The notes under the pieces are model-generated. The model saw only the letters and a list, made by a program, of their open reading frames with translations. It was not told the DNA's origin and ran no database searches. The position numbers and the translations under genes are program-made. A DNA stretch of 64,000 nucleotides from Buxus sempervirens. Lineage: Eukaryota; Streptophyta; Magnoliopsida; Buxales; Buxaceae. The stretch spans positions 40,567,220-40,631,219 of the forward strand of contig OX387186.1 in NCBI GenBank assembly GCA_947561395.2, written 5' to 3'. This document shows, in pieces, positions 18,847 to 64,000 of the stretch (position 1 is its first letter; each line of letters begins with the position of its first letter).

Positions 18847-18928
18847 TCAAATTTTTATTGCTGAAGATGATGTAGCTAAAACGGCATTTCGCTGCCCTGG
18901 AGCATTAGGAACTTACTGTTGGGTAGTT

Positions 18929-21679: not shown

Positions 21680-21705
21680 AATAAATATCTACTGCTCGGT
21701 ACCTG

Positions 21706-22474: not shown

Positions 22475-22529
22475 GTCATCAAAGAGTTAATACCGAACAA
22501 ACGGTATATTGTTTAAAAGATCTTACCCC

Positions 22530-25290: not shown

Positions 25291-25633
25291 GATCGATGAC
25301 AAGAACCAGACAAAGAAAGCTTGCAGAAAGAAGGAAGACGAAACACTACAGAAAACGTCTGCCGATAGGAAAAGATTCGTAATGATTAAAATATCGGAGA
25401 AGAGCTTTTGATAAGACCGCGGTCTTCCCAAAAAAGGTGTTGATGGTACGATTGCCTTCCCAAAGAAATCGAAACGGCGGTTGGAGATCTTCTCGAATAA
25501 AGCGTTTTGAAAGTAAAGATCATACGGGCGAATCAATTTGAAAAGATAAACTTTGTCGAAAATGGGGCCGATTCTGACGGCTAGGACAGTTGGCAAATGG
25601 ATTTCAAAAAAGGATTTGAATTCATTAAATGCT

Positions 25634-28792: not shown

Positions 28793-29004
28793 TGAAGACA
28801 AAGAAGAAGAAAAGACAAATAGCCAAAAGAGAAAAGTAAAGTAAAATCTCGGCTGCAGTATGTTATAAGCGAGATGAAGCCCGAAAAGTCTCATCATTGC
28901 GATCGTGGGAAAGTGGCGTGATCTTTTCACATCAAGCAACGGACAATTTTTGAAAAACCCAAAGTACTTACTCATCACACCGGCCGATGACGGCGTAATA
29001 AGTA

Positions 29005-29017
29005 AGTAGGGGGGCAA
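29005..29017 (+). other. Polypurine tract of element C
   Basis: agtaggggggcaa lies immediately before the 3' LTR, the expected site for plus-strand priming. Confidence 0.8.
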
Positions 29018-36603: not shown

Positions 36604-36706
36604 AAGACCCTTTTGCTGGGATTTTGCACCACCTCCTTCCATCACACAGGCTGTCCTTCATACTCTCTCTGTGTTCTTTCATTCAGAAGCTCATCATCAC
36701 CTACAA

Positions 36707-38767
36707 ATGGCTCCCAGTTTCACCGACGGTGAATCGTTGTTCACCTTTGTCGTCCGAGATGGTTATGGTGTGAAGGGTATGGTGGATTCCGGCCTGTCGA
36801 AGGTGCCGGACAGATACATCCAACCCCCGCAGGAAAGAATCAACAAGCTAGATGCAAACTTACATGTATCTTCCCCAATCGATCTGTCAGAGCTGGATGG
36901 TCCTAACCATGACAAGGTGGTGGAAAATCTTGTGAAAGCCGCTGAAACTGTGGGATTCTTCCAGGTGGTGAACCATGGAGTCCCAGTGGAGTTGCTTGAG
37001 CAACTCAAGGATGCTGCCCACCGGTTCTTTAGCCAGCCAGCAGAGAAGAAAGCAGTTTATCTCAAAGGGGTTAGTCCTAGTCCGTTTGTGAAGTATGGGA
37101 CCAGCTTTGCTCCGGAGAAGGAGAAGGCATTGGAGTGGAAGGACTACCTGAGCATGATCTACACTGGTGATGCCGATGTTCTCAAATATTGGCCTGAAGA
37201 CTGCAAGTAAGTACTTCTAATGAAATATATATAGATATATATATATATATATTCATTAATTTTAGACCTTTATTTTTCTCCTCTTTTGATGGTTCCTTCC
37301 CCCTCCCTTTGCTCATTTTTAACTTATTGTTCTAGTTTTAAAATTTTTTGAGTTTCTAATAGTGTTTTTACCGAACTCCTGTCTTTTTTTCAATTGAAGG
37401 GTATAAAATTATTTTACTAAAACCAGTAAGGGAAAAAAAAATTACCACTTCCTCACTTTTGGGTCAAATTTCAACTATGAATAATTAGATATTAATTTGT
37501 AGATTTGATTGAATGCTTACCAATTATATATTTCTTACAATATTCAGACAATAATATGAAAGATCGATTTCTTAGCAAACAACGATATTGAAAGTCCACA
37601 TTTGATCAATCACTAAATAAATGTTATGAAAGATTTCTTACAAAATAAATTTTATTTTGTAGTATTAATTATAGAAGGATTAGAATTCTCCAAGTTAGGA
37701 AAACAATCTTTCTCTTTTTGTTTCACTATTTAAGGTCTGAAATGGATTTAATTGGACCAAAAAAGAAAAGAAAAATCAAAAACCAAACTCCTTATCTGTT
37801 GAACCAACTTTTCTATATAGGCCATGGCTTCCACTGTAAACGGCTGTTGAAGATGAAATATAATTGGTAAGCTTTCAATCAAATCTGGTCTGATTTTTAG
37901 AACACTTCAAATAAAATATAACCAAGTCAGCTGTATTAATCTTTGTATATCAAACTGGTAATTAAAATCAAAAATCACTTAAAGGATTCCAATGGAGCCA
38001 GCCTTTTTCCTTTTCTCGTTTAACATCAGTAACATCTAACCGTGAAATTTGTATTCAAGGGAAGTGGCACTGCAGTATCTGAAGACATCAACCAAAATGA
38101 TCAGAATGATATTTGAGGTGCTGGTTGGAAACCTTGGTGTGGCTGTCGACGACTCCATGGCCGACGCATACATCGGCGCAAAGATGGTGAACATGAACTT
38201 CTATCCAACTTGTCCCAATCCAGACCTAACCGTTGGTGTCGGCCGCCACTCCGACATGGGCACCTTAACTGTGTTACTACAAGACGGGATCGGTGGTTTA
38301 TATGTGAAAGTTGAAGGCGAAACAGACGCCCAAATAAAGGAAGAATGGATAGAGATTCCGCCCATATCTGGTGCTCTTGTCATCAATGTTGGCGACACCT
38401 TAGAGGTGTGTATATGTTTGTGGACTTGGTTTTTTCTTGCTTTCTTCAATAATGGGATTTTGCCTAACCTGTGTATAAATTCCGTGGTCTTTTTTGTTTT
38501 GTTTTGCCTTTTTAGATACTAAGCAATGGGAGGTACAAGAGTGCGGAGCATAGAGTTCGTACAACGAACACACAGTCGAGAGTTTCGGTTCCCATTTTTG
38601 CAACCCCACGACCAACGGACATGATCGGACCGCTGGCTCCAGCGGTAGAGAGGGATGGAGTGGCCCACTATAAAGAGGTCTTGTTTGGAGACTACATGAA
38701 CAATTTCTTTGGCAAGGCTCATGATGGCAAGAAGTCTCTTGATTGTGCCAGAGTCAATGACCATTGA
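36707..38767 (+). CDS. 2-oxoglutarate/Fe(II) dioxygenase, feruloyl-CoA 6'-hydroxylase-like
   Basis: Three exons (36707-37206, 38060-38405, 38516-38767; introns GT-AG) give 365 residues, near the usual length for this group. An N-terminal DIOX_N region has WGFFQV-like VGFFQVVNHGVP. The 2OG-FeII_Oxy core has iron ligands H230, D232 (GRHSDMGTLTVLLQD) and H294 (SAEHRV), and the 2-oxoglutarate-binding R304 and S306 (RVSVPIF). The C-terminal KAHDGKKSLD motif and the overall pattern resemble feruloyl-CoA 6'-hydroxylases, which ortho-hydroxylate feruloyl-CoA on the route to scopoletin. Related soluble plant oxygenases look similar, so the substrate is inferred. All catalytic residues and splice sites are intact. 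The start is the first ATG after a TATA box, and the gene stands alone. Confidence 0.9.
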
Positions 38768-45640: not shown

Positions 45641-46152
45641 GTTTGTATACCACTTTTTGGGCATGTAATACTTGTGTGCATATTTAGTTGCTTTGGCTTT
45701 CTTGCTTGCTTATGTTTTGCTTCCAATATGATTGTCATATGCCTTGGCTTGGAATTGTATGCATGGCTACGAAAAAGAATGGCAAGGGGCTGGGACGTTG
45801 TGAATGGACCTCAAATTTAAATGCACTTAAGCACTTTAAACCATTTGCACAACCTACCCATTACCTATAGGAAGTTGAACCCGAATGTGTGTAGCTTGCC
45901 GCACCGAGGTCGTTACTTCGGAAAGCGAAAGTGAAAACATTCATCTTAGAATTTGAGTCAATGACGTGATGACAATGGGATCTGTGATTCGATTCTGTAG
46001 ACACCCCAAATTGTACTAAAAATGAGAAAATAATTGAAAATATTAATTGGGATTTGAAACAGGTCAAAAAAGTGTAAAATCTGGCCAAATTGGTCATGAC
46101 CGTATTTTGTTTACGAACTGGTCATACCTGCAGTTGATATACGGTCACGGTG

Positions 46153-46175
46153 TGCCCGTATTAATAATACGGGCA
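46153..46175. repeat. Perfect 11-bp hairpin in LTR B
   Basis: TGCCCGTATTA / TAATACGGGCA around a single A. The same palindrome is intact in the 3' LTR at 56476-56498. Confidence 0.9.
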
Positions 46176-46410
46176 GGGCGCGACCGTAATATATATACGG
46201 GCACGGGGGTCTTTGTACGAATTTTACCTTTTTGATTTTTGAGCCTTATCTGCACCCAAATTTCTCTCTTGGATAAGCAAATTCTCTTATTTATCTATTC
46301 GAATTATCTCATTTATCCCTGTGGATAAAGGATGAGCATGATCTTGTGTTTAACTTAAACTGAAACTCTATCTTGCCAAACCTTGGACCAACCATGCCCC
46401 TGGGTTTGCC

Positions 46411-46418
46411 TATAAATA
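46411..46418 (+). promoter_or_regulatory. LTR TATA box (element B)
   Basis: tataaata in tgcctataaatagaggacct, conserved in the 3' LTR at 56734-56741 and in element D. Confidence 0.7.
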
Positions 46419-47823
46419 GAGGACCTTTCCTCAAGCAAAAGGCCACGAAATTTTGAGTCCAAGGAATTCTAAGAAGCTCCAAGAGAAGAGAAAGAACTCC
46501 TGCTGCCTGCCTGCTCAATCCAGGTAAGTCCCCTATCCCTTTTGATTTTCTGTCTTCAATTCTAGAAGTAATAGGATCATCTCTATTGCTGTAGAATAAG
46601 GCCATCTTTTGTACTTGTATTCCTAAACTTGTCTCTAAGTACCTCAAGAGTCTCTCTAGCCGTAAAACGTGAAGAGAGAACTAGGGGAAAGGGGAACAGG
46701 TGGATCCCTAGAATAGAACCCCATATCTGTTTTTTTCTTTTTTCATAGAATAAGGCCTGTGATTGTGTTTGTGTAACCAAACCTATCTCTAAGTACCTCA
46801 AGAGTCTTTCTAGCCGTAAAACGTGAAGAGAGAACTAGGGGAAAAGGAAATAGGTGGATCCGTAGGGTAGACCCCCATGTGCTCTAATTTGTGAGACGTG
46901 GCTGTTTTAAATATTTTGATCATGTTTTAATGCTTTTTATGATATATCTGAATGAATAACATGAATCTATGATGTTTATAGCATGAGATCCCCGCTTTTT
47001 TCCAAAATTTGGATTTTTGCCACTTTTGCACCTACAGCACTGTTTTCGTGACTTTTGCGATTTTAGGCTAGGACCTTGGATTTATCATGATCAATATGGT
47101 AGATCTGGATCCAGAAGCCTGAAAATAATTCTAGGGTTTCATGATGTGGTTTTTTAAATCGTTTTTCATTATTGAAAGAAGACCCTACGGTCTAAGTTCT
47201 CCCATTTTGGTGTTTTTCATCAACGTGGGTATTTTTGGTTTTTATTTCTTGATTTAGTGTGAAATTTGGGCTTTATCTATGTCCTGGATTATTCAAGTTT
47301 AATTTTGAAATATTTTATAAAAATCATATTTTTCTAGATTTCTAGAATTTGACTTGAAGCCAGATTTTTGGATTTTTCACTTTAAATTGATTTTATTTGA
47401 TTTTATCTTAATTTTATTTTGATCATGAAACCCTAGGAATGGTATGATCATATTTGAAAGTTCTGGATCAATCAGACTATTCATATGAAAAAACCATACA
47501 ATTTTTGTCTTTTTTGTGATTTTTCCTGATTTTATAGCAAGCCTTTTTTCCTTTAATTTAACATGAACAATACCTGGCAACCACCTTGTGTGGATGAATA
47601 GGGGTGCCTAACACCTTCCCCTGTTCATAACCTAATCCCCTTACCCATCTCTGGTTGTTTTTTTTAGGAGGGATATTTTGCCCTAAAATTTGCATTTTGT
47701 GCTTATTTGATATTTTGGTGTCCATTCACACCTAAATTGAATGGTGGCGACTCTTTGTTTTATTCGATCCCGTGTGATGATGAGGAAGTCAATGGAAATT
47801 TATTTTTTCCCATGTCTCACAAC

Positions 47824-47841
47824 TGGCGACTCTGCTGGGGA
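47824..47841 (+). other. Primer binding site of element B (tRNA-Arg type)
   Basis: TGGCGACTCTGCTGGGGA, two bases after the LTR end and identical to element A. Confidence 0.8.
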
Positions 47842-49320
47842 CTTGTGGATTTGAGCCTTTTGGTGTTTTAGTTCATGTTTTTGATATTTTTGGATTTGCT
47901 TGCTATTTTGTGTTCTTAAGCATGTTGAGTATGTTCTAAATCTCAATTATTGCTTAAGAATTCATGGGGGTAGAAACATGCTTAATTTTGATTTATAGGA
48001 TTGTTTCTACAAACATGCGTAGGGGAGGTCCGTTTTGCTGAACCATGATTATTTCCTGCTATATTTTTATGATAGCATGTTTTAATTTTCAGCATGATCT
48101 CCATGATGATTTTGGGTGTATAACATGATCATATGTTTGCATGATAGATGATTTTTTATGAGCATGTTTTAGGTGCTATAGGATTGTTGTATTTACTTGT
48201 TTATTTTAAATATGCTTTCCTATTATGCCTGGGTTTGTTTATGCATGGCTGCGAAAAGAGTGGCAAGGGTTTGGGACGTTGTGAATGCACCCAATTTTTA
48301 CAATGCACTTTGCACATTTTATTTTTTTACACAGCCTATCCTTAACCTATAGGAAGTTGAACCCGAATGTATGTAGCTTGGCGCAATGAGGTCGATACTT
48401 CGGAAAGCGAAAGTGAAAACATTCACCTTAGAACTTTGGGCTAATGATGTGATGATAATGTGGATCTGTGATTCTGGTCATCACTAGGCTTGAGTGCTAA
48501 GTTGCCATTAAGCCAAAACCCAAAACTCCTACGCTTGAAGGTGGAGTTACACGTTTTTGGCTAAAGTACACAATTACATGGGGATATGGGTTTGTATGAT
48601 TGTGGGAAGGCCGTGTGCAGGGCTTACAAACCAGGGCATAATGCGGATGCTATATTCAAGGTAAACAAGGTAACAAGGTAATCCTATTGTTTTGCATTAT
48701 TATCATGTCATAGGGGTGTCATGGTGCCCATTGGTTCGGGATAAAATTGGTCCCAAAATATGCATATTTTCTAAAATTGGTACAGCCCATAGGAAGAGTT
48801 CTTAACTCTGTTTAGAATCAATCCTACCCTATGTTCACACAAGAGGCAACAGAAGGGTGCCAAATTCTTAAGTATGATGTCAATTTGGAGGGTACATGTG
48901 CCCTCCTAAACATGTATTTTAGCAAAAAGGTCAAAGTCCACTTTGGGACAGTTTAGAAGCTCTGCACTGGGTGAACCGTATGTTTGGATGAGCAATTAAA
49001 GTGATCAAACCATGCAAAAACTGAAAAAACATAAAAGAGCTCCATAAAACCGTATTTGATATACGGGCTGGGCTCATCCGTATTAGTTATACGGGCAGGG
49101 TTCGCTCGTGGATTCCATACGGTCACGGCTGGCTCGTAATTTGAATACGGGCATAGCTGGACCGTACTGTGTATACGGTTTTATCGGAAAATTAAATTTT
49201 AATCAGTTTTTCCCACTAAAATATTCTTTTGACCTTTAAATAATGATAAAGGGAAACAAGTTTGAATAAACTGCTTCAAAAAAAAAAACAAAATAATTGA
49301 ATAAAAAAAAACTGTGAAGG
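47842..49320 (+). other. 5' leader of element B with ATACGG palindromes
   Basis: Non-coding leader. The segment 48340-48700 aligns with the leader of A on both sides of the B insertion. At 49050-49180 short inverted repeats recur (CCGTAT-TTGAT-ATACGG at 49050-49066 and CCGTAT-TAGTT-ATACGG at 49078-49094, then further atacgg/ccgta copies), using the same word as the LTR B palindrome. No open frame with a recognisable domain was found. Confidence 0.7.
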
Positions 49321-51175
49321 TTCCTTGGGCTTCTGAAAGCCTCTGAATTTCAGACTTTTTCAAAAAACTCATGGGCCTCTGAAAGCCTTTGAATTTCAGA
49401 TATTTCAAAAAATCCTGGGGCCTCATAAAGCCTTTGAATTTCAGACTTTTTCAAAAAACTCATGGGCCTCTGAAAGCCTTTGAATTTCAGATTTTTCAAA
49501 AAATCCTGGGGCCTCTGAAAGCCTTTGAATTTCAGACTTTTTCTCAAAAACTCCTTGGGCCTCTGAAAGCCTTTGAATTTCAGACTTTTTATAAAAAATC
49601 CTTGGGCCTCTGAAAGCCTTTGAATTTTAGACCTTTTCTCAAAAACTCCTTGGGCCTCTGAAAGCCTTTGAATTTCAGACCTTTTTCTTTTGGGCCTCTG
49701 AAAGCCTTTGAATTTCAGATCTTTTGGGCCTCTGAAAGCCTTTGAATTTCAGATCTTTTGGGCCTCTGAAAGCCTTTGAATTGCAGACCTTTTTCTTTTG
49801 GGCCTCTGAAAGCCTTTGAATTTCAGACTTTTTCTCAAAACTCCTGGGGCCTGTGAAAGCCTTTGAATTTCAGACTTTCTCTCAAAAAATCCCCGGGCCT
49901 CTGAAAGCCTTTGAATTTCAGATCTTTTTCCTTTGGGCTTCTGAAAGCCTTTGAATTTCAGATCTTTGGGCCTCTGAAAGCCTTTGAATTTCAGACTTTT
50001 CCTCAAAAACTCCTTGGGCCTCTGAAAGCCTTTGAATTTCAGACTTTTATCAAAAATCCTTTGGGCCATCTAAAAGCCTCTGAATTTTAGACAAAACCTT
50101 TTGGGCCGTTTAAAAGCCTCTGAATTTTAGACATTCATTTCTTTGGGCCGTCTAAAAGCCTCTGAATTTTAGACCAATCATTTCTTTGGGCCGTCTAAAA
50201 GCCTTTGAATTTTAGACAATCATTCCTTTGGGCCGTCTATAAGGCTCTGAATTATAGACACATATCCTTTGGGCCGTCTAAAAGCCTCTGAATTTTAGAC
50301 ATTCATTTCTTTGGGCCGTCTAAAAGCCTCTGAATTTTAGACAAATCATTTCTTTGGGCCGTCTAAAAGCCTCTGAATTTTAGACAATCATATCCTTTGG
50401 ACCGTCTAAAAGCCTCTGAATTTTAGAAGGCCGTCTATAAGCCTCTGAATTGTAGACACATATCTTTTGGGCCATCTAAAAGCCTCTGAATTTTAGACAC
50501 ATATCCTTTGGGCCATCTATAAGCCTCTGAATTTTAGACAAATCATTCCTTTGGGCCGTCTAAAAGCCTCTGAATTTTAGACAATCATTTCTTTGGGCCG
50601 TCTAAAAGCCTCTGAATTTTAGACAATCATTTCTTTGGGCCATCTAAAAGCCTCTGAATTTTAGACAAATCATTTCTTTGGGCCGTCTACAAGCCTCTGA
50701 ATTATAGACACATATCCTTTGGGCCGTTTAAAAGCCTCTGAATTTTAGACACAACCTTTGCTTGGGCCGTCTAAAAGCCTCTGAATTTTAGACAAATCAT
50801 TTCTTTGGGCCATCTAAAAGTCTCTGAATTTTAGACAAATCATTTCTTTGGGCCGTCTATAAGCCTCTGAATTATACACACATATCCTTTGGGCCTCTGA
50901 AAGCCTTTGAATTTCAGATCTTTTTCCTTTGGGCCTCTGAAAGCCTTTGAATTTCAAATCTTTTTCCTCAGGCCTCTGAAAGCCTTTGAATTTTAGACCT
51001 TTCTCGAAAATTTCTGGGCCTCTGAAAGCCTTTGAATTTCAGACCTTTTTTCAAAAATACCCCTGGGCCTCTGAAAGCCTTTGAATTTCAGACCTTTTGC
51101 AAAAAATATCCCTGGGCCTCTGAAAGCCTTTGAATTTCAAATATTTTTCTCTTTTTGTGGGACCTGTTGGAAGCC
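49321..51175 (+). repeat. Tandem stem-loop array upstream of gag (element B)
   Basis: About 43 units of 34-50 bp. Each has a short inverted repeat around a conserved loop GCC(T/C)(T/C)TGAA, followed by a T- or A-rich linker. The outer blocks (49321-50055 and 50885-51150) use stem TCTGAAA / TTTCAGA. The middle block (50056-50884) uses GTCTAAAA / TTTTAGAC, with a variant GTCTATAA / TTATAGAC (50235-50259). Both arms change together in most units. Long open frames across the array are repeat artefacts. Confidence 0.92.
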
Positions 51176-51377
51176 CTAGATTATTCCAACAATTCTAAAG
51201 AAAAAAGAAGCAAATAAAGAAAAAAAAAATCCAAACTCGTGTTCACCCAGCTTACACATAGGCATTCATAGGCATGTGAATGAGATTAAATGGGCACTGA
51301 TATTTTCCCTTTATTTTTGCCAGGTACCAAGTACACTTGCAACCATAGCTCCTGTAACCAGATCAAGAGCTCGCGCC

Positions 51378-53114
51378 ATGAATCCCATTGAGACTGAAGC
51401 TGATGCTCCTCACCCAGATTTAGCCCTGCTTCAGGAGCAGGTGGCAGGACTAGCTCGAATGCTAGAGAACATACTATCAGTGCAGGCCGAACAAGTCCAA
51501 GCCTAGAACCAAGCCTCCACTTCCAACCAAGCACCTCCACCTCAAATCAATATTCCACCTCCGGTTCAACCTATTCCTAAACCCACCCCGGAACCTATAC
51601 TGATCAGGGGGGAGACGGTTGAGTTTGAGAAAGAGAAGGAAAAAGAGAGAATGAGGGATGAGATGGAAAAGAAGTTCATGCATAGGCTGGAGATTATTCA
51701 GGACGAGCTAAGGGAAGTGAAAGGGATACGTAACTTTGGGGGCACCAATTTTGAAGATCTGTGCCTATACCCCAATGCATGTCTACCGGCCAAGTTTAAA
51801 TGCCAAGATTTTGATAAATATGATGGCACTGGCTGCCCAATGAGCCATTTGAAGTTATACTGCGGGGCTTTATACCAGTTTGGCCGGGATGACGGCATAC
51901 TAATTCAACTATTCCAGAGGAGTTTAATTGGAGCTGCTTTGAGGTGGTTTACCACTTTGGATCATGGGAAAATAAGAAGGTGGAAGGATTTAGCAGATTC
52001 CTTTTTGGCACAACACAGGTTCAAATTTGAGATTATACCAGATAGGTATGACATGATGAGGATGGCGAAGAGAAATGATGAAACCATAAGGCAATATGCT
52101 AAAAGGTGGAGGGAGTTGGCTGCTCAAGTCAAGCCACCCGTGGGAGAACCAGAAATGATTTCAACTTTCATCATGACATTGGGGCAACCATTTTATAGTC
52201 ACTTGGTGGGTCAAACTACTACCAACTTTGCTACCCTAGTGCAAGTGGCAGACAGAATTGAAGATGGGATCAAGTCTGGGAAAATAGCTGATTACTATGC
52301 AGTGTTGAACCAAGAAGCTTCCACCACTTTCTCTACACAGAAAAAGGAGAATGGTAATGGAAGAATAAAGAATGAAGAAGAGAGAGAAGCAGAAGTGAAT
52401 ATGGTGCAACTTCCTAGGGAACCCTTTCAAATCAATGTCCATCCACCTCCTATCAAGCCAACCCATCAAGTTCCTTTGCTGCCTATCCAAATTAATGTCC
52501 CTTCTGCACAGCCTATGAAGGAGGAAACAGAAGTAAGGAAGAGAAGGGAATTTTCTAAACTGCCTATGAGACCATCTGAGCTTTTGCCTACTTTACTTCA
52601 AAAGGGTTATGTGACTTTGAGGTTGCCAAATCCTCATGCAAGCAAGGGGAAGAATTATGATTCATTTGCAATCTGTGATTATCATATGAGCACTCTAGGG
52701 CATACCACAGATCGTTGCGTGGCCCTAAAGCATGCAATCCAGGATTTGTTGGATAATAACTCCTTATCATTCAATTCAGTCACTCCCATCCCACCTATCG
52801 ATAACAATGGGGCAGGCAACTCAAATGCAATAGGGGCAATTTTCTCTGGAGAAAGAAGATTTGACCCTTCTCAGCTTATCACTCCTATTGGTCCAACAGT
52901 CAGGGTTTATCTTGAAAGAAATGCTCCTGGTTATGAGCAGGAAGGCTTGCCTTACTCAGCAAGAGAAAGAAATTATCTGAAAAGGGAGAAAAATCAACTT
53001 TTGCCTTTGAGAACATGGGTAGTTTTCGAACTCCCACGTTCTCTGAAAAGAAACCCTCATAAGAAGAATGCACATTTCCTGAGAATCTTAAGGAGCCTTG
53101 TTCTCAGGAAGTGA
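51378..53114 (+). pseudogene. gag: Element B Gag, one early stop
   Basis: The frame starts at MNPIETEADAPHPDLALLQE (51378), following VTRSRARA. It is interrupted by TAG at 51504-51506 and then open from 51507 to 53114. The N-terminal coiled coil is followed by the gag core (about 51750-52270: LPAKFKCQDFDKYDGTGCPM, LIQLFQRSLIGAALRWFTTL, ETIRQYAKRWRELAAQVKPP). A Cys/His segment (CDYHMSTLGHTTDRC, near 52675) is followed by KHAIQDLLDNNSL. It closely resembles the gag of A at 59933 onward. The C-terminus after about 52990 looks truncated by the deletion that removed protease. With a single stop, this is the best preserved gag of the nest. Confidence 0.88.
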
Positions 53115-56100
53115 TTTTAATAAAGGCTCTTAAAAAAAAAATTTTTTTTTTTCTCTTTAACATTTGTTCTAGAAAAAAAAAAGTTTTCAGCAAGGTCATT
53201 TTACTTATGAATCATATCTCTTATTGAATTTCATTGAGTTGAATATGACTTCGACATTGGGCTCAATTTTGAGACCAAAATCGAAGAAAAAGATATTTTA
53301 TGTGAAAATTCAAATCTTTTTAAGTGTCATGAGAAGAATATTCTGCAAAATTATGAAGTGACCAATTTAATGGCCTTTGGAACCAAAGATGACCCACAGT
53401 CTTCAATAGAAAAGATAAAAGAAGATTTGAAGTTTCTTTATTAGAATACAGAAAGGATCACATCACTTGCTAATTCGTTCAAAGGGAAGTTGATAATATT
53501 GTTTGAAGAAATTTTGGGGCTTTGCACTTGAAAATATGGGAGAAGATTTGACCTTTTCGTTGGAAATCAAATTGAGCATCATTTGATGGAAAGAATCCAA
53601 ATTCAAAAAATTGATCAAAAGGTGAAGAACTTGTTCATAATAGAGGTTCTATTTGAAAAGGCTTTCATGTTGATAGAAGGTGATTAAGAAAAAAAAAGAG
53701 AAGAAAAAATCCTGAGCTGGTCATGTAGTGCAACTCTTCCAAGTCTAAAATTCAAACTTTTCTTAAAATGATAAGAGGCCTTTCTTTCTTATATCCCCAA
53801 AATTTTTGAAATCCCTAGTTAAACCCTTTGAGCTTGATACATTTTTCCAAATAACCTACACTGAGAATTGTAACCCCACACTGGGGCAAATTTATTAAGG
53901 CATAAAAAAAAGGGAATGAAGGGACAATTATTGAAATTCAAAAGAGATTTTGAATATGTTTTCAAAAAATGGGGCAAAGAAATGAAAAAAAAAAGAAGAA
54001 AAAGAAAAAAAGATAATCAAATGCTATTTGGAGAATGTCTTCAAAATTGTGAAGAAAAGAATGGAAAAAAAAAGGTTCAATACTGGAGAATAAGTTTCAA
54101 ATGAAGAAATCAAAGTGGGGGAAGAACTTCATTACTGGGAGCAATTTTGTATTCATTCCAAGGGAAGAAATGCCTTAAAAATTACAATTTCAGTTAACCC
54201 ATTTGATCATAGGGTATTTGAGCCTTTTATTCCTTTTCTTTCTAAACTAACACCAAGTCTTCATTTCATCCCATTCATAAGTCCTCTTTGATTAAGAAAT
54301 TTTGAATTAAGGCAGTTTTGACTACATGGTTGTTGGTGATGAAGGATAAAAATAAAAAAAGAAAAAAAAAGAAAGAAAAAGAAAAAGGAAAAAATGGAAA
54401 AAATGTAGTGAAAACCCGGAAGGGTGCTACATGGCAAATAATCAGCTATCTACAAGAAGGAAATCGTCAGAGAGGAAAGTCCAGAATTGGTATAGATCCA
54501 GGTGAAGTCCTCATGTTGGTGGTTATTTTGAGATACAGTCACTCTTCAAGTGATTGAGGAAAATTCTCTTTTCAAGACTGAAACAACATAATCAGAACTA
54601 TGATATGAATCATCTGTGAATAAGTTGATGGCCATCAAAATTGCCATTAGGAAATTATTGCTGAATTTGAAGTCATAAATTCCCATATCATGGATACAAG
54701 GGAGAAACAATTGCTCTTCAATTGGATGAAGGAAAATGTCTTTCTAGACTGGGGCAAAATAATCAGATTGAAAGAGTCGTTATATCTGGAGCATCAATTG
54801 ACAAGCCGATGGTCATGGGAATGATTCTAAAGGTTCCGAAGGCTTATTTTGGTCTTTCTTCATTTTCTGAAATAATCTTCTCATTATTCAACTTGATTTT
54901 AATTCTTTTGGACTATATGCTAATAAGTGATTGGATCATTTTTTTCAAAAAAAATATAAAAACACAAAAAAGCAAAAACTATATTTTTGGCCTATGAAGA
55001 GAATCTATATCTTTTCATAAAACATTGGTTTTGCAAGCATTAGAGAATTCTGAGGCCACTAGTATAAAATATATTTTCTTATGTTTGCATTTGCATTATT
55101 CTATTAGGGTTTCTTTTTGGCAAAGGTTAAAAAAAAAAAAGAAAAAAGAAAAAAGAAAAAAAGAGGATCATCTCTACTGAGGGGCAAATACTTCTTCAAA
55201 CAATCAAAACCGGGGCATGCTCAGTGTCTTTTCCTCTGGGTTTTCATTGAAATGAATTCCAACATCTGGAAGAAGCAATCAAGCTTTAGTCTTCGAATTT
55301 GAAAGAAAAAAAAAAGGCTTCGAAGCAATGGCATGTTTTCTTCGTTAAACAAGGGTTCCCAATTCTTCAATCATGAAGAAGGATTTTACTGGGGCAGCAA
55401 GAAGGCATGAAAGACAGATCATGGGTTGTAAAGGCATGAGATTAGATCATCAGATTATGGTTCTCAAATCCATCAATCAAGATGAGGGCATTCACTTGGG
55501 CAATTAAAAAGCATGAAGACAGGTTATGGGCAGTAAGGGCACATAAATCGTTATTGAGAGAGCAAGAAGATAAAGAAGCAAAAGCAAGTTGCAGCATATT
55601 CAAGCACAGGTTCGGGAATCAAATGGCACCCAGGTATATCAAATAAGAAAATCAATCAGGAAAATTCAAAAAGTGAAAAACATCAAAATCAATTGAGTTT
55701 GCAGTGGTCAATTTTAAATCCACATTCTTTTCAAAATTTGCTTGTCTCATATTTCTTTTCATAGCCACGAGAGCTCAAAGAAATCTGAGATAAGGAAGAG
55801 ACGCCACCCCATCAGACTTCAAGCAGGGGTTTCATTAGCTATCTTCGAATCCATGTTTTTATCATTTCTTTGTTTGACCAAAGCAAGTTCAATTAATGAG
55901 ATGTTTTTCAAATGTGTAATTTTGAGTTGTGTTTGTTCTTTGCTGTTCATTGTGCTATAACTGCAGGCCACCCAGAAAATTTGTCTTTTTCATCATTTTC
56001 TCCACACTTTTCAGGAGATTAATGTTTATATCAGTTGTAAGTTGCAAGGATTACCACCTTACCCTCTTTTGTTTAAAAATTTTGTCTCAAATCTCACTTC

Positions 56101-56301
56101 ATATCCACGAGTGCTCAGTGAGAGGAGAGAGGAGGATTTGCCCCTTAAGCTGAGGGACTTTTTAGCAAATCTTCCGCAATGAATTCTTTTTACCAAAATC
56201 ATCCATTTAATCCTTGCAAAATGCAATTTGTTAGACAAAAATCTCAAAAAGTGCAATTGGTGGGTCTTTTTACTCTCTGCTAGTAATTGGTTCCAATCAC
56301 C
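53115..56301 (+). other. Degenerate post-gag region of element B
   Basis: Sequence 53115-53400 aligns with the spacer before RT in element A ('gaatatgacttcga', 'ttggaaccaaagatga'). Beyond that it is AT-rich with A-runs and repeated short phrases (e.g. 'actggggcaaa', 'gggcaaata') and no RT, RNase H or integrase motif in any frame. Small Lys-rich frames are artefacts of A-runs. Confidence 0.7.
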
Positions 56302-56318
56302 AGTAAAGAGGGGGCAGC
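56302..56318 (+). other. Polypurine tract of element B
   Basis: agtaaagagggggcagc directly precedes the 3' LTR. Confidence 0.8.
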
Positions 56319-58141
56319 TGTAGACACCCCAAATTGCACTAAAAATGAGAAAATAATTGAAAATATTAATTGGGATTTGAAACAGGTCAAAAAAGTGTAA
56401 AATCTGGCCAAATTGGTCATGACCGTATTTTGTTTACGGAATGGTCATACCTGCAGTTGATATACGGTCACGGCGTGCCCGTATTAATAATACGGGCAGG
56501 GCGCGACCGTAATATATATAAGGGCACGGGGGTCTTTGTACGAATTTTACCTTTTTGATTTTTGAGCCTTATCTGCACCCAAATATCTCTCTTGGATAAG
56601 CAAATTCTCTTATTTATCTGTTCGAATTATCTCATTTATCCCTGTGGATAAAGGATGAGCATGATCTTGTGTTTAACTTAAACTGAAACTCTATCTTGCA
56701 AAACCTTGGACCAACCATGCCCCTGGGTTTGCCTATAAATAGAGGACCTTTCCTCAAGCAAAAGGCCACGAAATTTTGAGTCCAAGGAATTCTAAGAAGC
56801 TCCAAGAGAAGAGAAAGAACTCCTGCTGCCTGCCTGCTCAATCCAGGTAAGTCCCCTATCCCTTTTGATTTTCTGTCTTCAATTCTAGAAGTAATAGGAT
56901 CATCTCTATTGCTGTAGAATAAGGCCATCTTTTGTACTTGTATTCCTAAACTTGTCTCTAAGTACCTCAAGAGTCTCTCTAGCCGTAAAACGTGAAGAGA
57001 GAACTAGGGGAAAGGGGAACAGGTGGATCCCTAGAATAGAACCCCATATCTGTTTTTTTCTTTTTTCATAGAATAAGGCCTGTGATTGTGTTTGTGTAAC
57101 CAAACCTATCTCTAAGTACCTCAAGAGTCTTTCTAGCCGTAAAACGTGAAGAGAGAACTAGGGGAAAGGGGAATAGGTGGATCCGTAGGGTAGACCCCCA
57201 TGTGCTCTAATTTGTGAGATGTGGCTGTTTTAAATATTTTGATCATGTTTTAATGCTTTTTATGATATATCTGAATGAATAACATGAATCTATGATGTTT
57301 ATAGCATGAGATCCCCGCTTTTTTCCAAAATTTGGATTTTTGCCACTTTTGCACCTACAGCACTGTTTTCGTGACTTTTGCGATTTTAGGCTAGGACCTT
57401 GGATTTATCATGATCAATATGGTAGATCTGGATCCAGAAGCTTGAAAATAAATTCTAGGGTTTCATGATGTGGTTTTTTAAATCGTTTTTCATTATTGAA
57501 AGAAGACCCTACGGTCTAAGTTCTTCCCTTTTGGTGTTTTTCATCAACGTGGGTATTTTTGGTTTTTATTTCTTGATTTAATGTGAAATTTGGGCTTTAT
57601 CTATGTCCTGGATTATTCAAGTTTAATTTTGAAATATTTTATAAAAATCATATTTTTCTAGATTTCTAGAATTTGACTTGAAGCCAGATTTTTGGATTTT
57701 TCACTTTAAATTGATTTTATTTGATTTTATCTTAATTTTTTTTGATCATGAAACCCTAGGAATGGTATGATCATATTTGAAAGTTCTGGATCAATCAGAC
57801 TATTCATATGAAAAAACCATACAATTTTTGTCTTTTTTGTGATTTTTCCTGATTTTATAGCAAGCCTTTTTTCCTTTAATTTAACATGAACAATACCTGG
57901 CAACCATCTTGTGTGGATGAATAGGGGTGCCTAACACCTTCCCCTGTTCATAACCTAATCCCCTTACCCATCTCTGGTTGTTTTTTTTAGGAGGGATATT
58001 TTGCCCTAAAATTTGCCTTTTGTGCTTATTTGATATTTTGGTGTCCATTCATACCTAAATTGAATGGTGGCGACTCTTTGTTTAATTTAATCCCGTGTGA
58101 TGATTAGGAAATCATTAAATTGATTTTTTCCATGTCTCACA
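56319..58141 (+). repeat. 3' LTR of element B
   Basis: Nearly identical to 45996-47821, with TATA at 56734-56741 and the palindrome at 56476-56498. It ends tctcaca followed by the target copy gattt. Confidence 0.95.
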
Positions 58142-59149
58142 GATTTTGGTCATCACTAGACTTGAGTTCTAAGTTGCCAATTAAGCCAAAATCCAAAAAC
58201 CATACGCTTGAAGGTGGAGAAACACGTTTTCATCTAAAAGTACATAATTGCGTTTGGGGAATTGGGTGTAAATGTGGGAAGGCCGTTTGCATGTTTCACA
58301 GGCCAAGGTATAATATGAATACCATATTGAAGGAAATACAAGGTGGCAAGGTAAAACCATGTTCTTTTTTATTATTTTCATATAAATTAAAAGCCATGGT
58401 GTCCATATGCTTGGGACGAAATTTTTCCCAAAAATGTATATAGCCTAAAGTTGGTGTAACCTATAGGATGAGTTTCCAACTCAATAAAGGTCATCCTACC
58501 CAAAGTCCAAGCAAGAGGCAACCAAGTGTACAAAGTCCAATAATGGGTATGTAACTTTGGAGGGTACAAGTACCCTCATAAATTTGGGAATTTTTGCAAG
58601 AATGATGTCAAAGCCCAATTTGGGGCAAGTTTTAAAGGCCAAGTCAAGGTGAACATCAATTGGGAATGAAAATAACATAATCTAGTGAAACAATGAGTCA
58701 AAAAGGACCATTTCGGCCTTAACCAACAACTCAATTCGGTTAAGAAGAATTTCATTTATATCCGGCATATGTTATCGGTTGCAAAGACTTATGCGTGTAT
58801 CCGACTAATTATATCGGATACAATAAGCCATAACCTTATTTGATATATTATGTCGGATACATTCAAAAAATGTATAAATTTGTTTTTCAGCCCAAATTTT
58901 CAGAATAAAATGCCTAAAACACTGTGGATAATCTTTAAGCACCCCAAAGAGAATATAAAAAAATGTTTCAAAAAAATGATAATAAAAAAAAATTGCTTTT
59001 AGGGTTTAACCTAATTTTGGAAATCAAAGAGGAAACCAAGGTGTCATATTTTTTGATACCAATTCAATTCAAATATGTTTTTATCAAGCTTTTGAACTTG
59101 AAAACTGAGAAAATTCAAAAAAAAAAAAAAAGAAACTTTTGGTTGGTTA
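58142..59149 (+). other. Leader of element A, resumed after B
   Basis: It begins 'gattttggtcatcactag', which matches the B leader at about 48473, so it continues the A leader cut at 45995. At 58741-58870 it carries TCGGATAC-type palindromes, the word used in LTR A. It is not coding. Confidence 0.75.
58797..58821. repeat. Perfect hairpin in leader A
   Basis: An 8-bp stem GTATCCGA / TCGGATAC with a 9-nt loop, the same stem word as the LTR A hairpin at 42481-42505. Confidence 0.85.
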
Positions 59150-59745
59150 TTTTATCAATCAAATCAAAACATTTGTGGGACACTTGGAAGCCCTAGAATA
59201 TTCCGAGAAACCTTTGGTTGATTATTTTTTCCAATCAAATCAAAACATTTGTGGGACACTTGGAAGCCCTAGAATATTCAGAGAAACCTTTGGTTGGTTA
59301 TTTTTTCCAACCAAAATCAAAAATTTGTGGGACATTTGGAAGCCCCAGAATATTCCAAAAAACCTTTGTTTGGTCACGAGAACCAATCAAAATCAATAAT
59401 TGGTGGGACATTTGGAAGCCCCAGAATATTCAAAAAAAAACCTTTGTTTGGTCACGAGAACCAATCAAAATCAAAAATTTGTGGGACATTTGGAAGCCCC
59501 AGAATATTCCAAAAAACCTTTGTTTGGTCACGAGAACCAATCAAAATAAAAAATTTGTGGGACATTTGGAAGCCCCAGAATATTTCAAAAAACCTTTGTT
59601 TGGTCACGAGAACCAATCAAATCAAAAAATTTGTGGGACATTTGGAAGCCCCAGAATATTCCAAAAACCTTTGTTTGGTCACGAGAACCAATCAAAAAAA
59701 AAATTTGTGGGACATTTGGAAGCCCTAGAATATTCCAAGCAAAAT
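59150..59745 (+). repeat. Tandem stem-loop array upstream of gag (element A)
   Basis: Nine or so units of about 60 bp (TTTGTGGGACATTTGGAAGC … cacgagaaccaatcaaaa). Each contains the inverted repeat TTTGGAA / TTCCAAA around GCCCCAGAATA (or GCCCTAGAATA), with some mismatched units. One unit of this type (ttggaagccctagattattc) also closes the array of B at 51169. The 241-codon open frame over it is an artefact of the repeat. Confidence 0.88.
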
Positions 59746-59932
59746 CAAAAAAATAATAATAATAATAAAAAAAAAAAAATAAATCTGGACTTGTGTTCAC
59801 CTAACCTACTTGTGTACATTTATAGGGGTGTGACTCAAGTTAAGTGGAAGCTAACTTGTTTCTTTGTTTCTTCTTCCCCAGGTACACTTAATTGCCATCA
59901 TTGCTCCTGTGACCAGATCCAAAGCCCAAGCC

Positions 59933-62230
59933 ATGAATACTGAAGAGAACCAAGCTCAGGCCACCGTACCCGCTCAAGACTTTGCTCAGCTGCAAGACCA
60001 AGTGGCTGGTCTGGCCAAGATGCTGGGAGACTTACTAGCGGTTCAGGCCCAATAGGCCCCGGCCCAAAACCAAGCATCAACCTCCCATCAAGCACCGCCA
60101 CCTCAAGCCTACATTCCACCGCCTGTTCAACCTATACCTAAACCCATTTCTGAACCTGTCCCTGAGCCTATTCTAATCAGGGAAAATACTGTGGAATCTG
60201 AGTAAGAAATGGAGAAGGAAAAAGCTAGGGAGGAGATGGAAAGAAAAATGCTACTCCGGATAGAGAGAATCCAGGAAGAACTGAAGGAGGTAAAGGGGGG
60301 AAACAGCTACGGAGGTACCACCTTCGAGGACTTATGCATGTACCCGGACGTATGCCTACCAGCTAAATTCAAGTGCCTGGATTTCAACAAATATGATGGC
60401 ACAGGCTGCCCTATGAGTCACTTGAAACTATATTGCGGGGCCCTATGCCAGTTTGGCCGGGATGACGGCATACTGATTCAACTCTTCCAGAGGAGTTTGA
60501 CAGGGTCAGCCTTGAGGTGGTTTGCCACGGTGGACCACGGAAGGATTAGAAGGTGGAAGGACTTGGCTGACGCCTTCTTGGACCAGTATAAATTCAACTC
60601 TGAGATCGTGCCAGACTGGTACGACATGATGAGGATGAGCAAGGGGAAAGATGAGTCTGTAAGGCAATACGCCAAGAGGTGGAGAGAGGCCGCCTCCCAG
60701 GTTAGACCGCCCATGTTGGAACCTGAGATGATCTCAACTTTTGTGGGCACACTGGGGTAGCTCTTCTACAACCATCTGGTGGGGCAGATCACCACCAATT
60801 TTACAGCCCTGGTGCAGGTGGCAGACCGGATCGAGGAGGGGGTCAGGTCAGGAAGGCTCATTGACTATTTTACTTTGACTGGGCAGTTTGATTCTGCTGC
60901 TTCCCTGGCACAGAAGAAGGGAACTGGGTTCAAGAAGAACGGAGCCAGGAAAGAAGGGGAAGTAAACCTGGTCCAGGCTCCTCCCGCCAAGAAACCGCTT
61001 CATGTGAGCATCTCTGCACCCCAGCAGGCCCAACAGGCTCAGCACTCTTATCAGACCCCGCACAATGTCAATTTCTCCCCCTCTATGCCTGCCAACCCAA
61101 GGAGGACTTTTACCAAGGAAGAGAGGGAGGCTTGGTTGGCAGCAAGGAGGAACCGAGTCTTTACTCCTCTTCTCGTATCTCTTTCCCAACTACTGCCAAC
61201 ACTACTGAAAGGGGAGTATGTGACCCTGAAGGAACCCAACCCAAATGCCTCGAAGGGGAGGAATTTTGATCCAGCCATCACTTGCGACTATCATATGGGT
61301 GCATCGGGGCACTTTACTGACACTTGCTGGATGCTGAAGCATGTGGTCCAGGACCTGTTGGATCAGAAGGCCCTGGTTTTCAATACTGCTGCACCTGCCA
61401 CATCAGGAAATGATATTGGGTAGAACCTTCTGCCTTACCACAATGGGGCAGGCCCGTCCAACTCCATCACTGCCATATCCGCCACGAGAAGGGCCTTTGA
61501 CCCATCTCAGCTTATAGCACCCGTGGGGACCTCGGTCAAGGTCTATTTCTTCCAAGAGAAAGAAGAAAAGGAGGTTAGTGTTATCTCCAGGAAAAGTGAT
61601 GAGGCTGCTGAAGATATTAGCTCCTCTCTGAACCGGGTCTCCTCCCTCATGGCCCAGATGAGCACTGCTAGGCCTCAATTGGTCTTTAATTGTGGTTCAC
61701 CCACCTGCTCTCCGGCCAAACCACCAAAGGCTCCCTTGGTCATCATCCTAGACCCCACCACCGCCTCCATCAGCTCTTCAATTCCATCAGCCACATCTGG
61801 GTCCAAACTCCAACCCGTGGTTGTAAACATTCCACCTTCCTACAGTATCCCTAGACCGGCCCATACATCTCGGTCCAAACTCGAGCAGTTGGTGGTCAAT
61901 GTCCCTAGACTAGCCTATTCTGAGGTAGATGTACCATGGAATTACAGCGAGGGGGTCACGGCTACGGTTCCGGTGGCCAGGAACCAAAATCAAGAGGAGG
62001 TGAACCTCATGACGAGGTTGGGGAAATGTGTGGAAGGAGTAGAAAAAGAAAAAGAAACAGAGTTGGAGAGAGAGAAAAAAGAAACAGAAGAAAAAAGAAA
62101 AATGAAAGGGAAAACAAAAATAGGAGAAGACACCCCCGAGGGTGCAGAAAATGAGGCATCAGACCTCATAAAAATAATAAAGAAAAGTGAATTTAATCTT
62201 GTGGATCAGCCGAACAAGGTCCCAGCCTAG
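59933..62230 (+). pseudogene. gag: Element A Gag, multiple stops
   Basis: One frame runs from 59933 to the protease with stops at 60053 (TAG), 60203 (TAA), 60758 (TAG), 61421 (TAG) and 62228 (TAG). An N-terminal coiled coil (LQDQVAGLAKMLGDLLAVQA) is followed by a Pro/Gln linker, a Glu/Lys-rich helix and the gag core (60340-60760: LPAKFKCLDFNKYDGTGCPM, ESVRQYAKRWREAASQVRPP). A Cys/His segment CDYHMGASGHFTDTC lies near 61285. The later part (61523-62230) is a Ser/Pro-rich, then highly charged linker. Protein similarity to gag of B is high. Non-functional as it stands. Confidence 0.88.
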
Positions 62231-62248
62231 ATTTCAATTCTGGGCCTT

Positions 62249-62870
62249 TTGCTAAATTCGGAAAAGCATAGGGACGCATTGTTAAGGGTGATACAGAGTG
62301 CACATGTGTCCCAGACCATCGATCCGGACCAACTAGGCAAAATGGTTGGTCAAATTTTGTCACACAATGTGATAAGTTTCTCAGAAGGCGAGATAAGCCC
62401 AGGTGGGTGTTATCATGTTGACCCTTTGCACATCACAGTGCTTTGTAAGGGCAGTATGATAGTACGGGTTTTAATTGACAACGGGTCAGCGTTAAACGTC
62501 TGCTTGTTAATCACTTTTGTCAAGCTTGGTCTGGATCAGTCGAAGATCAAGCAAAATGGGAGGATCGTGAAGGCTTTTGACAGCTCTAAGACACACTCCC
62601 TTGGGGAGATTGAACTGCCGGTCACAATTGGACCGAATATCTTCAACATCACATTTGAGGTGATGGATATACCCGCACCACACAGCCTTCAATTTGCTCC
62701 TAGGAAGGCCGTGGATATACTCGGCTAGGGCAATACCGTCCACGCTCCACCAAAGGGTGAAATACATAAGAGGGCAAAGGGTGATAACAGTCCTAGCTGA
62801 GAATTTGGTGCCTCCCATTGTGTCACCTGATGTACCCTTAATAAATGTAGACTTAACTGTTGACAAGATT
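62249..62870 (+). pseudogene. Element A aspartic protease, frameshifted
   Basis: The domain opens with LLNSEKHRDALLRVI, a conserved lead-in of Tat-group protease. The active-site Asp-Asn-Gly is at 62477-62485 (VLIDNGSALNVC), then GEIELPVTIGPNIFNITFEV. Around 62680-62700 the frame changes by one base, and the conserved LLGRPWIYSARAIPSTLHQR continues in the other frame. Together these cover the full protease fold, but this copy cannot express it in one frame. Confidence 0.85.
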
Positions 62871-64000
62871 GCATTTCACTCGTTTCAGTTTGGGACGGTT
62901 AATTTCATACCTGGGGGGTGTGAGAAAAAAGAAAAGAAGGGGACAACTGCTGAAGAAATGGTAAAGAAAGTGATGGAGAAATACCACTTTCACCCGGGAA
63001 AAGGCTTGGGATTTAACTTACAAGGAATGGTGGAGCCCATCAGGGCCAAGAAGCTGATCCCAAAAGTAGGGTTGGGGTTTAAACCCAGAGGTTGGATGAG
63101 GATGAAGTACGAAGAAGGAGAGAAAAGAAGCAAAGGAAAACTTCCTTATCTAAGGGAGAATTTTCCAAGACCCTCATGTATAATCCAACTATCTCCTTCT
63201 ATGGACCAATCTAAGCCTCCTTACCGAAACATCAACCCATTCCAAAAGCCTTCTATTTCGGCCTTACAACCATACAACCCATCTCCTATACTGGAAACAG
63301 CAGATGGGCCTGGGCCACAGCCCGAGTAGCAGGTGGATTTCTCTGAGGATGTTGGGGCTTTATTCGCCATGATTGAGGGCGATAAGACAGGAGCAGACAT
63401 GGACCTGCCGTTCATTGACTGGGCAGCAGTTAAAATCCCAGATGAGGTTATATTTGGACTGGGCCCCGTAGCAGAAAACGGCAGTACCCACCCGGTGATG
63501 ATGGCATCGGATTTTGGGCTTGAGGAGCAAGCTTGCACAATTTCCCCTGCTCCCCAAAATTTTGTATTGAACAATTAGGAGGAAACTCCCCTTACTTTTG
63601 AAGCAGCGTCTGTGTGGCAAACTGACGCGACTTCCAAAAAAAAAACTCCAATAGTGGAATGCCATTTCCCTGAAGGTCCTAATGAGCCTTCGTCTTCAGA
63701 GGGATTATGTTTAGAAGGCTCACAAAAAAACCAAAAAGATTTTTCTATTTTTTCTAGAAAATTTAATTTTTTCAAAAAGTTCCAAACCACTTATGAACCA
63801 TATAAGCAAACCGAATTGGACCAGGTTGAATATGACTTCGACCTTGAGCTCGACTTTGATCTCATGGGGATCGAAGAAGAGACCAAGGTCGAAGAAGAAG
63901 ATGTTCCAAGAGAAATTGAATATCAATTGGAACGTCATGAAAAGGGGGTCCAACCTAATATTGAGGAGACCATTTCAATAAACCTTGGGACCGAAGATGA
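62871..64000 (+). pseudogene. Element A G-patch region and pre-RT spacer
   Basis: In the same frame as the second half of protease there is a G-patch-like segment (about 62979-63090: YHFHPGKGLGFNLQGM, VGLGFKPRG), a domain known between protease and RT in Ogre/Tat elements and presumed to bind RNA. It is followed by TAG at 63327 and 63576 and by an acidic spacer (FIDWAAVKIPDEV, ELDFDLMGIEEETKVEE). RT would begin just beyond the window. Confidence 0.8.

Follow-up and report, generated by a model that had tools for sequence, protein, structure and literature searches.

Tandem array of probable RNA pseudoknots ahead of gag in Tat-type retrotransposons of Buxus sempervirens

The 64-kb stretch of Buxus sempervirens DNA analysed here (the window) contains a long terminal repeat (LTR) retrotransposon, element B, which is a younger insertion nested on the same strand in a relative, element C. 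The leader of B, between the primer binding site (PBS) and gag, carries a tandem array of short stem-loops, and the leader of C carries a homologous array. Is such an array a satellite, a row of DNA cruciforms or a folded RNA under selection, and what would it do? The array before gag is real. In the leaders examined its position is sense-strand, after the PBS and before gag. In the reading preferred here, held at a probability of about 0.45, the genomic RNA of a Tat-type element would carry a row of small H-type pseudoknots that act together as a multivalent cis signal. All array loci compared come from one plant genome (676.5 Mb, 247 contigs).

Units of the B array were located solely by their loop core, at a fixed loop length and without regard to the stem. 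Forty-three units were found within 49326–51144, in agreement with the first-pass annotation (about 43 units with a fixed loop core), and a divergent 44th follows. Unit spacing is 29–49 nucleotides (nt), so no unit is missing between the 43. Paired bases occupy 292 of the 301 proximal stem cells (7 per unit), 5 of these pairs being G-U; 9 cells are broken. The units reported earlier as broken (50514, 50686, 50867) and the unit paired through G-U (GTCTATAA/TTGTAGAC) are as described. Unit length is constant: by eye, the stem-loops of the 43 units are free of insertions and deletions, except for unit 26, in which the outermost base is lost. The 42 spacers have 12 distinct lengths, from -1 to 21 nt. 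Unit 44 has a different stem (TGTTGGAA/TTCCAACA) and a longer loop. Its type fills the array of C and occurs as single units in the leaders of a third family, D, and in other B leaders. No Rfam family was matched in the 64-kb window at gathering score (0 matches).

Stem variants of the B array are arranged in blocks. TCTGAAA is found in units 1–17 and 38–43, GTCTAAAA and GTCTATAA in units 18–37. The four units of GTCTATAA type (22, 27, 33, 37) have one common spacer, ACACATAT. The variants trace to about three founders, and this counts against a selected fold as far as the B array itself is concerned. Because they are block copies, covariation inside this array is not independent evidence, and it was rejected as such. 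Block duplication of two or three founders had been named in the first-pass annotation as the weak point of its own claim, and inside the B array it is what was found. Its inference from paired change to selection on a folded RNA therefore does not stand on B alone; it is carried by related leaders. The founder blocks also suit an unlikely explanation without any RNA function, according to which hairpins amplify themselves in tandem through pausing and template switching of reverse transcriptase, and templated repair of imperfect palindromes changes both arms.

Related leaders are abundant. In the genome, a 17-mer taken from the unit matches at 9,237 sites (at most 1 mismatch), its reversed control at 0. 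The gag of B gave 10,659 first-look candidates in the genome, of which 116 were scored; from these, 20 leaders of plus-strand B-type gags were drawn. Eight C-type leaders were taken from 150 C-type gags listed. A third sample of 20 leaders was chosen via a Tetracentron gag; most are family D by unit type, and L082 and L084–L086 are B-like. Twelve more leaders and four upstream pieces were included in later scans. The array is present in 20/20 B-type leaders (18–38 unit-pattern matches each, some units counted twice), in 8/8 C-type leaders (5–14 pattern matches each), in every leader among those listed of the third sample and in 4/4 further D leaders. It sits before gag in B, C and D. Leaders of the three families have one common unit plan, and 13 different stems occur among 21 listed types. 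C array units of the window are GGGA-CA-TTTGGAA-GCCC-CAGAATA-TTCCAAA and GGGA-CA-CTTGGAA-..-TTCCGAG, with the stem weakened in 2/8. D arrays hold many unit types side by side, for example with stems TTCTAAA/TTTAGAA, CCTGAAA/TTTCAGG, CTTGAAA/TTTCAAG, CTTGGAA/TTCCAAG, ATTGGAA/TTCCAAT, TCTAGAA/TTCTAGA, TAAGGAA/TTCCTTA and GTTTGAAA/TTTCAAAC.

Arrays look mosaic, as though leaders recombine. In L008 (G000:C1:3413066-3416082), with a C-like gag, B-type units (GTCTAAAA, GTCTATAA, GTTTGAAA) stand behind C-type units. Hairpins other than knots are found between units in L067, L070, L071, L080 and more D leaders: TGTCTACAG-gctttta-CTGTAGGCA and ATTGGTT-(15 nt)-AACCAAT. Among viral contigs, 0 confirmed relatives with gag and 0 matches to a unit pattern were obtained.

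The stem helix, S2, was tested for covariation with descent modelled. Units were located by loop motif and aligned, a tree was built, and each column pair was given a pairwise G score; for the null, identical substitutions were replayed on identical branches at random columns. The G test itself makes no use of the pairing rule. Units with fewer than 4/7 stem pairs were dropped beforehand, so some bias towards pairing remains; units without G at p3, a position of the second helix treated below, and units with a longer first loop were also dropped. With 97 distinct rows seen at least 2 times, stem pairs 3, 4, 7 and 6 head the 435 column pairs (ranks 1–4; E = 0.0025, 0.01, 0.065 and 0.97, two below 0.05). 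The top S2 pairs have E = 0.004, 0.004, 0.033 and 1.0 in a run of 82 rows (three below 0.05) and E = 0.028, 0.028, 0.49 and 4.0 with 244 distinct rows (two below 0.05). S2 stems with paired changes are shown over three families. That the array is a selected RNA fold is very probable. Support comes from related leaders and not from the B array alone: S2 pairs head the tree-aware test, and in three unit classes, counted below, both-side changes exceed those of all 500 shuffles (descent ignored).

The hairpin first described holds as a stem-loop, but a second helix had been missed: GCC of the supposed loop core can pair with a fixed upstream GGGC. In the leaders compared, GGGC, AGGC, AAGC, GGGT or GGGA/AGGA lies 5' of the stem, and the loop starts with GCCT, GCTT, ACCT or GCCC. 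Since the order is GGGC - arm - GCC - arm', this second helix, S1, crosses S2, and the unit would be an H-type pseudoknot, provided both helices form. In H-type pseudoknots 1–2 nt can span 6–8 base pairs of the deep groove, and at least 3 nt are needed to span 3–4 base pairs. The geometry of 21/21 hand-picked types (first loop 1–2, S2 7–8, S1 3–4, last loop 3–7) is sterically possible. The same types, hand-picked and with hairpins lacking S1 omitted, were used in an S1 permutation.

For a tally of S1, units were picked by S2 together with a permissive loop pattern, in which p3 must be G and the three loop bases that follow must be pyrimidines. The counts are GGGC/GCCT (695), AGGC/GCCT (139), AGGA/GCCT (80), AAGC/GCTT (80), GGGA/GCCC (71) and GGGT/ACCT (4). 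Discordant combinations are fewer, e.g. TGGA/GCCT (10), TGGC/GCCT (10), GGGC/GCTT (6), AGGC/GCTT (5) and AAGC/GCCT (2). A non-unit combination, CGGC/ATTT, was picked up 15 times. The outer pair in the GGAC class is A-T 84, G-C 72, A-C 1, G-T 1, T-T 10, T-C 1. The second pair, for stem TCTAGAA only, is G-C 13, A-T 17, G-T 1, A-C 0. The fourth pair is C-G 949, A.G (unpaired) 168, C.A 21, T-G 9, T-A 5. Paired changes in S1 occur at 3/4 positions.

Pairs of both helices were counted in 12 D, 8 C and 18 B-like units of equal length within each class, and compared with shuffles that ignore descent. These units are 37 of 55 aligned and one added D unit; L079:651-679 (first S1 pair broken) and L079:813-841 (stem one out of register) are left out of the set of 18. 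With kinship thus ignored, the D types have 132/132 cells paired and 20 both-side changes vs 5.6 in shuffles, the C types 79/80 cells paired and 7 changes vs 2.6, and the B-like types 98.5% of cells paired and 17 changes vs 4.5; in each class 0/500 shuffles are as high. The paired S1 change falls on the second pair in D, the first in C and the fourth in B-like types (the last in one row). When partners are slid by one column, paired cells fall to 46–72%; further slides are lower. An unpicked S1 permutation used 35 clusters of at least 3 copies, 31 of them with a best S1 score of at least 3 (four loop lengths). Its total is 115 vs 100.1 expected, reached in 0/5000 permutations (descent uncorrected). 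Two attempts were left unused: a MAFFT alignment of 55/97 rows (most TCTGAAA variants omitted), in which 3' arms are misplaced, and a comparison of unit and spacer conservation between neighbours, in which ratios are biased by a unit pattern fixed by the search expression.

S1, hence the pseudoknot, is well supported but not proven, and the unit is probably an H-type pseudoknot. The first-pass annotation had kept a DNA cruciform open beside the RNA, and this alternative is not sustained. Neither a cruciform nor a neutral satellite explains a crossing S1, or constant unit length beside variable spacers, and both were rejected; S1, with 3–4 base pairs, is too short to hold a cruciform. The explanation by self-amplifying hairpins and templated repair meets the same difficulties. 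S1 crosses S2 and has only 3–4 base pairs, yet it shows paired changes; unit length is constant and spacer length is not. In D leaders, moreover, some types stand as single units at many loci with both helices intact (for example AGGC/TCTAGAA in 13 copies at 13 loci and AGGC/CTTGAAA in 12 copies at 12 loci; the scan lists intact units only). The limitation of tree-aware significance to S2 speaks for this explanation.

Orientation was approached by a strict two-helix scan, which gave 1179 sense matches in 143,239 leader bases. Elsewhere in the window, 14 matches lie on the antisense strand of 1–44300 and at least 6 on its sense strand, 2 on the sense strand in 51400–56300 and 3 in 60000–64000. 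The argument for the sense strand is drawn from the orientation before gag and from the commonest S1 form, which has a G-U on the sense strand that would be A-C on the other strand. As a strand test, the count of G-U vs A-C was set aside: it has the expected direction (69 to 42 distinct cells, in units with at least 4/7 stem pairs) and is blurred by decay after insertion.

A series of results weighs against the pseudoknot and its selection. With phylogeny modelled, no S1 pair is significant. The pair p2-q3 reaches rank 9 (E = 12–16) or rank 10 (E = 18, 244 rows), p1-q4 and p4-q1 are far down, and p3-q2 is nearly fixed, partly through how units were picked. S1 is not significant here because it varies little. 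Covariation with descent taken into account, the check first proposed for the array, is thus obtained for S2 and not for S1. The fourth S1 pair is changed on both sides in only 5 copies, and 168 have the unpaired A.G. Each of the changes in S1 may reflect just one or two events. In the both-helix counts, the number of pairs changed on both sides was reached by 5, 172 and 1 of 500 shuffles (D, C, B-like), and that of further pair types by 286, 492 and 219 of 500. D arrays also contain hairpins without S1 (TGTCTACAG-gctttta-CTGTAGGCA). The families are not fully independent, since some unit types are common to D and B. Folded singly, five units do no better than shuffled sequence (z -0.10 to -1.49), and they are predicted to be only marginally stable by themselves. 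For S2 in the window array, the predicted probability averages 0.43 and exceeds 0.5 in 20/43 units. On the antisense strand of the same leaders 503 two-helix matches were found; this count is high because a perfect stem is palindromic, and the scan alone is therefore no proof of strand. Among distinct units G-U exceeds A-C by only 69 to 42, beside 98 other mismatches.

The leader may, as first proposed, serve packaging, translation entry or dimerisation. In the preferred reading, that of a pseudoknot string, S1 would usually have 4 base pairs (GGGC, AGGC, AAGC or GGGT with GCCT, GCTT or ACCT; 3 base pairs in the C type), followed by a crossing loop of 1–2 nt, an S2 of 7–8 base pairs, free in sequence and complementary, and a loop of 3–7 nt ending in A. 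Spacers joining the units would vary freely. Many equal sites would bind Gag (or a host protein), marking the full-length RNA for packaging and dimerisation. Unit number would be free to vary, as only occupancy counts (18–38 pattern matches in the 20 B-type leaders). Splice-like sites flank the array; a spliced gag mRNA would lose it, and the genomic RNA alone would keep it. Provided that these sites are used, the two RNAs would differ as a packaging mark requires. A multivalent platform on full-length RNA is suggested by the position after PBS and before gag, the sense orientation, the variable number of equal units and a fold kept through sequence change. Selection seems to act on each unit separately, and on its fold rather than its sequence. 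Packaging, or genome-RNA identity, as the main job of the array is proposed tentatively. With similar reserve, a modular string of dozens of equal knots with interchangeable stems and free spacers may serve a large Tat branch as a multivalent signal separating genomic RNA from gag mRNA.

Besides the donor-like and acceptor-like sites of B, counterparts are found in C (donor-like at 58351, acceptor-like ending at 59881) and in D leaders; donor-like sites are also present in all the leader sequences inspected for them (four B-type leaders, four upstream pieces of D). A short frame with GKAV, lying at 48560–48660 in B, at 58142–58350 in C (open for 68 codons) and in L099–L102, runs up to the donor-like site before the array. 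With an end like I(F/L)K it stops at the first donor in B of the window, in four further copies of B and in four D leaders, one of which has IWK; C is similar. These sites bear on an intron device, in which the array would be intronic and its hairpins would bring donor and acceptor closer together or adjust the proportion of gag mRNA that is spliced. Donor-like AAG/GTAA 5' and acceptor-like AG/GT 3' of the array in B, C and D favour such a device, as do the end of the GKAV frame at the donor in B copies, in most D leaders read and similarly in C, and the phase in which this frame would join the pre-gag frame in B and C after putative splicing. Against it, the acceptor phase fits the GKAV frame in only 7/12 B-type and 0/5 D copies read, and in B and D a stop codon closes the frame a short distance upstream. 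An intron device is improbable. Splicing of Ogre RNA is documented in the available text of PMC12786077 and PMC6317226, for a different intron.

A translation element, in which the folds would let ribosomes enter or pass a long AUG-rich leader (by internal entry, by shunting or by controlling gag initiation at a non-AUG codon), is doubtful. AUG is scarce in the arrays: in B there are 53 AUGs in the 3534 nt from PBS to gag and 2 in the 1880 nt of the array, vs a mean of 20.3 in shuffles of the array. The C array has 0 vs 11.8, and six D leaders 2–7 vs 12–16. AGT, GTA and GTG are as rare as AUG in B arrays, so the lack of AUG can follow from simple repetition, and AUGs reappear past the array, B having 3 in the 177 nt before gag. 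AUG depletion is real, but partly a by-product of the repeat. Conserved codons 5' of the first AUG of gag in all three families speak for a translation element, and the tobacco etch virus leader, in the portion of PMC8708638 available, offers a pseudoknot that serves cap-independent translation; the wide variation in unit number speaks against. The codons read A(T/I)IAP(V/R) and are conserved as protein (51339–51380 in B, 59894–59935 in C, tails of D leaders). They are opened by no AUG, and in L060, a C copy, stop codons interrupt them; translation might begin at AUU/AUA, or its start might be supplied by splicing.

Less likely still than a translation element is a stability or escape element, in which knots would block 5'-3' decay or hide the leader from small-RNA machinery and so protect the full-length RNA. 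Short knots with 7–8 base pair stems of interchangeable sequence would suit a mechanical role rather than a sequence-specific one. Known exonuclease-blocking RNAs are ring-like and larger than these knots, which tells against it.

Returning to the pseudoknot string as a packaging mark, the nearest functional parallel is retroviral psi. Psi is a structured RNA between PBS and gag, made of few unique stem-loops and absent from spliced retroviral RNAs. The array would likewise be a structured RNA in this part of the leader, and splicing may remove it; it has dozens of equal units. The Ty1 5'-terminal pseudoknot, as given in the available part of PMC4974528, also lies close to the 5' end of the RNA of an LTR retrotransposon. 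It is bound by Gag, and retrotransposition suffers when it is disrupted; a packaging role could not be shown. It is a single, long-range knot with no array (PMC4974528). The upstream pseudoknot domain of tobacco mosaic virus resembles the array in its consecutive short pseudoknots in an untranslated region (UTR) of a plant-borne RNA; in the accessible text (PMC4683447) it has three knots in the 3' UTR, against 18–38 unit-pattern matches per leader in the 20 B-type leaders. Tandem repeats in the 3' UTR of Tat/Ogre elements, the source of Lathyrus satellites according to the available text of PMC7004042, are like the B array variable-length tandem arrays in Tat-lineage elements. They lie 3' of gag-pol, whereas the array here lies between PBS and gag and covaries; the words hairpin and palindrome have 0 occurrences each in that text (PMC7004042). 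Sireviruses have repeated palindromic motifs, likewise many symmetric copies in non-coding DNA of plant LTR retrotransposons (PMC2829016, as far as accessible); the CGG-CCG palindromic core of their LTRs is not found in the array unit sequences. None of these Tat 3' UTR, Sirevirus, Ty1, tobacco mosaic virus and tobacco etch virus systems, in the source text available, consists of dozens of knots arrayed ahead of gag. The first-pass annotation knew of no described array of this kind, and none was met: the open-licence literature searched listed no retrotransposon leader with an array of pseudoknots or covarying hairpins.

LTR retrotransposons account for a major share of many plant genomes, and the way in which they mark genomic RNA for packaging seems to be largely an open question. 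In the available text of a 2025 review of their life cycle the term 'packaging signal' has 0 occurrences (PMC12786077). Many equal, sequence-tolerant knots make the question testable, by breaking and restoring stems and by adding or removing units. The thousands of genomic units are a natural mutation experiment on pseudoknots. They suggest that tandem repeats in transposons, usually taken as satellite seeds, can be structured RNA.

Coordinates of array blocks, element parts and splice-like sites in the window
Feature	Position	Strand	Remarks
Array block 1, units 1-17	49327..50043	+	GGGC-C-TCTGAAA-GCCT-TTGAA-TTTCAGA
Array block 2, units 18-37	50063..50879	+	GGGC-C-GTCTAAAA-GCCT-CTGAA-TTTTAGAC, and GTCTATAA/TTATAGAC form
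Array block 3, units 38-43	50891..51141	+	TCTGAAA type returns
Unit 44, divergent	51159..51191	+	GGGA-CC-TGTTGGAA-GCCC-TAGATTA-TTCCAACA
Homologous array of element C	59156..59742	+	8 units, period about 76 bp; two stem forms (see text)
Element B, complete LTR to LTR	45996..58141	+	window self-comparison
LTRs of element B	45996-47821 and 56319-58141	+	self-comparison 45995-47821 vs 56318-58141
Primer binding site of B	47824..47842	+	TGGCGACTCTGCTGGGGAC; direct reading
gag of B	51378..53114	+	first AUG 51378; one in-frame TAG; frame open from 51651 with Retrotrans_gag
Three donor-like AAG/GTAA sites 5' of array	48661..48684	+	predicted introns from 48661, 48670 or 48678
Pyrimidine tract and acceptor-like CAG/GT between array and gag	51300..51323	+	counterpart in C ends at 59881

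The LTRs of B are 98.36% identical over 1828 columns (self-comparison). Flanking sequences are GATTC (45991–45995) and GATTT (58142–58146) by direct reading. B is inserted, in the same direction, into the leader of C, which resumes on either side (45738–45990 left, 58142–58632 right); in self-comparison the left and right pieces match the leader of B itself at 83% and 73%. The PBS motif TGGCGACTCTGCTGGGGAC is also present in C, starting at 44679. A unit of like geometry, GGTG-T-CCATTCA-CACC-TAAAT-TGAATGG, is found in LTRs shortly 5' of the PBS, at 852–879 and 47717–47744; its C counterpart at 44562 is altered, with the first helix retained and the second not.

The gags of B and C are homologous, with a Retrotrans_gag domain in both. 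Region 53115–56318 of B has no open reading frame (ORF) of at least 150 amino acids, and the part of B covered by the domain scan, outside this region, shows gag only. Lineage was read from a relative, L103, the pol piece downstream of the B-type leader L086, which has in order RVT_1, RT_RNaseH, RVT_3, H2C2 (below its cut-off) and rve. An archaeal-type RNase H between RNase H and integrase, the OTA/Tat arrangement, is thus found in L103. In Ogre proper, an intron lies between gag-pro and pol, and many elements have an extra ORF with a plant mobile domain. In L103 a single open frame spans G-patch, reverse transcriptase, RNase H and integrase, unlike two-ORF Ogre. B, with C as a relative, is placed as a Tat-type Ty3/gypsy element because the domain order of L103 matches the Tat arrangement (archaeal-type RNase H between RNase H and integrase) given in the available text of PMC6317226. 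A G-patch domain lies 3' of gag in C (62694–63329); in L103 it lies before the reverse transcriptase.

The plant mobile domain was found only in another element of the window, at 13351–30110. This is a further Tat/Ogre-like element, with LTRs 98% identical and antisense plant-mobile-domain ORFs in 24586–29017. Zero two-helix matches occur within 11056–17914, i.e. none precedes its gag. Fragments of a host-type 2-oxoglutarate dioxygenase gene (DIOX_N, 2OG-FeII_Oxy) are present at 36671–38522.

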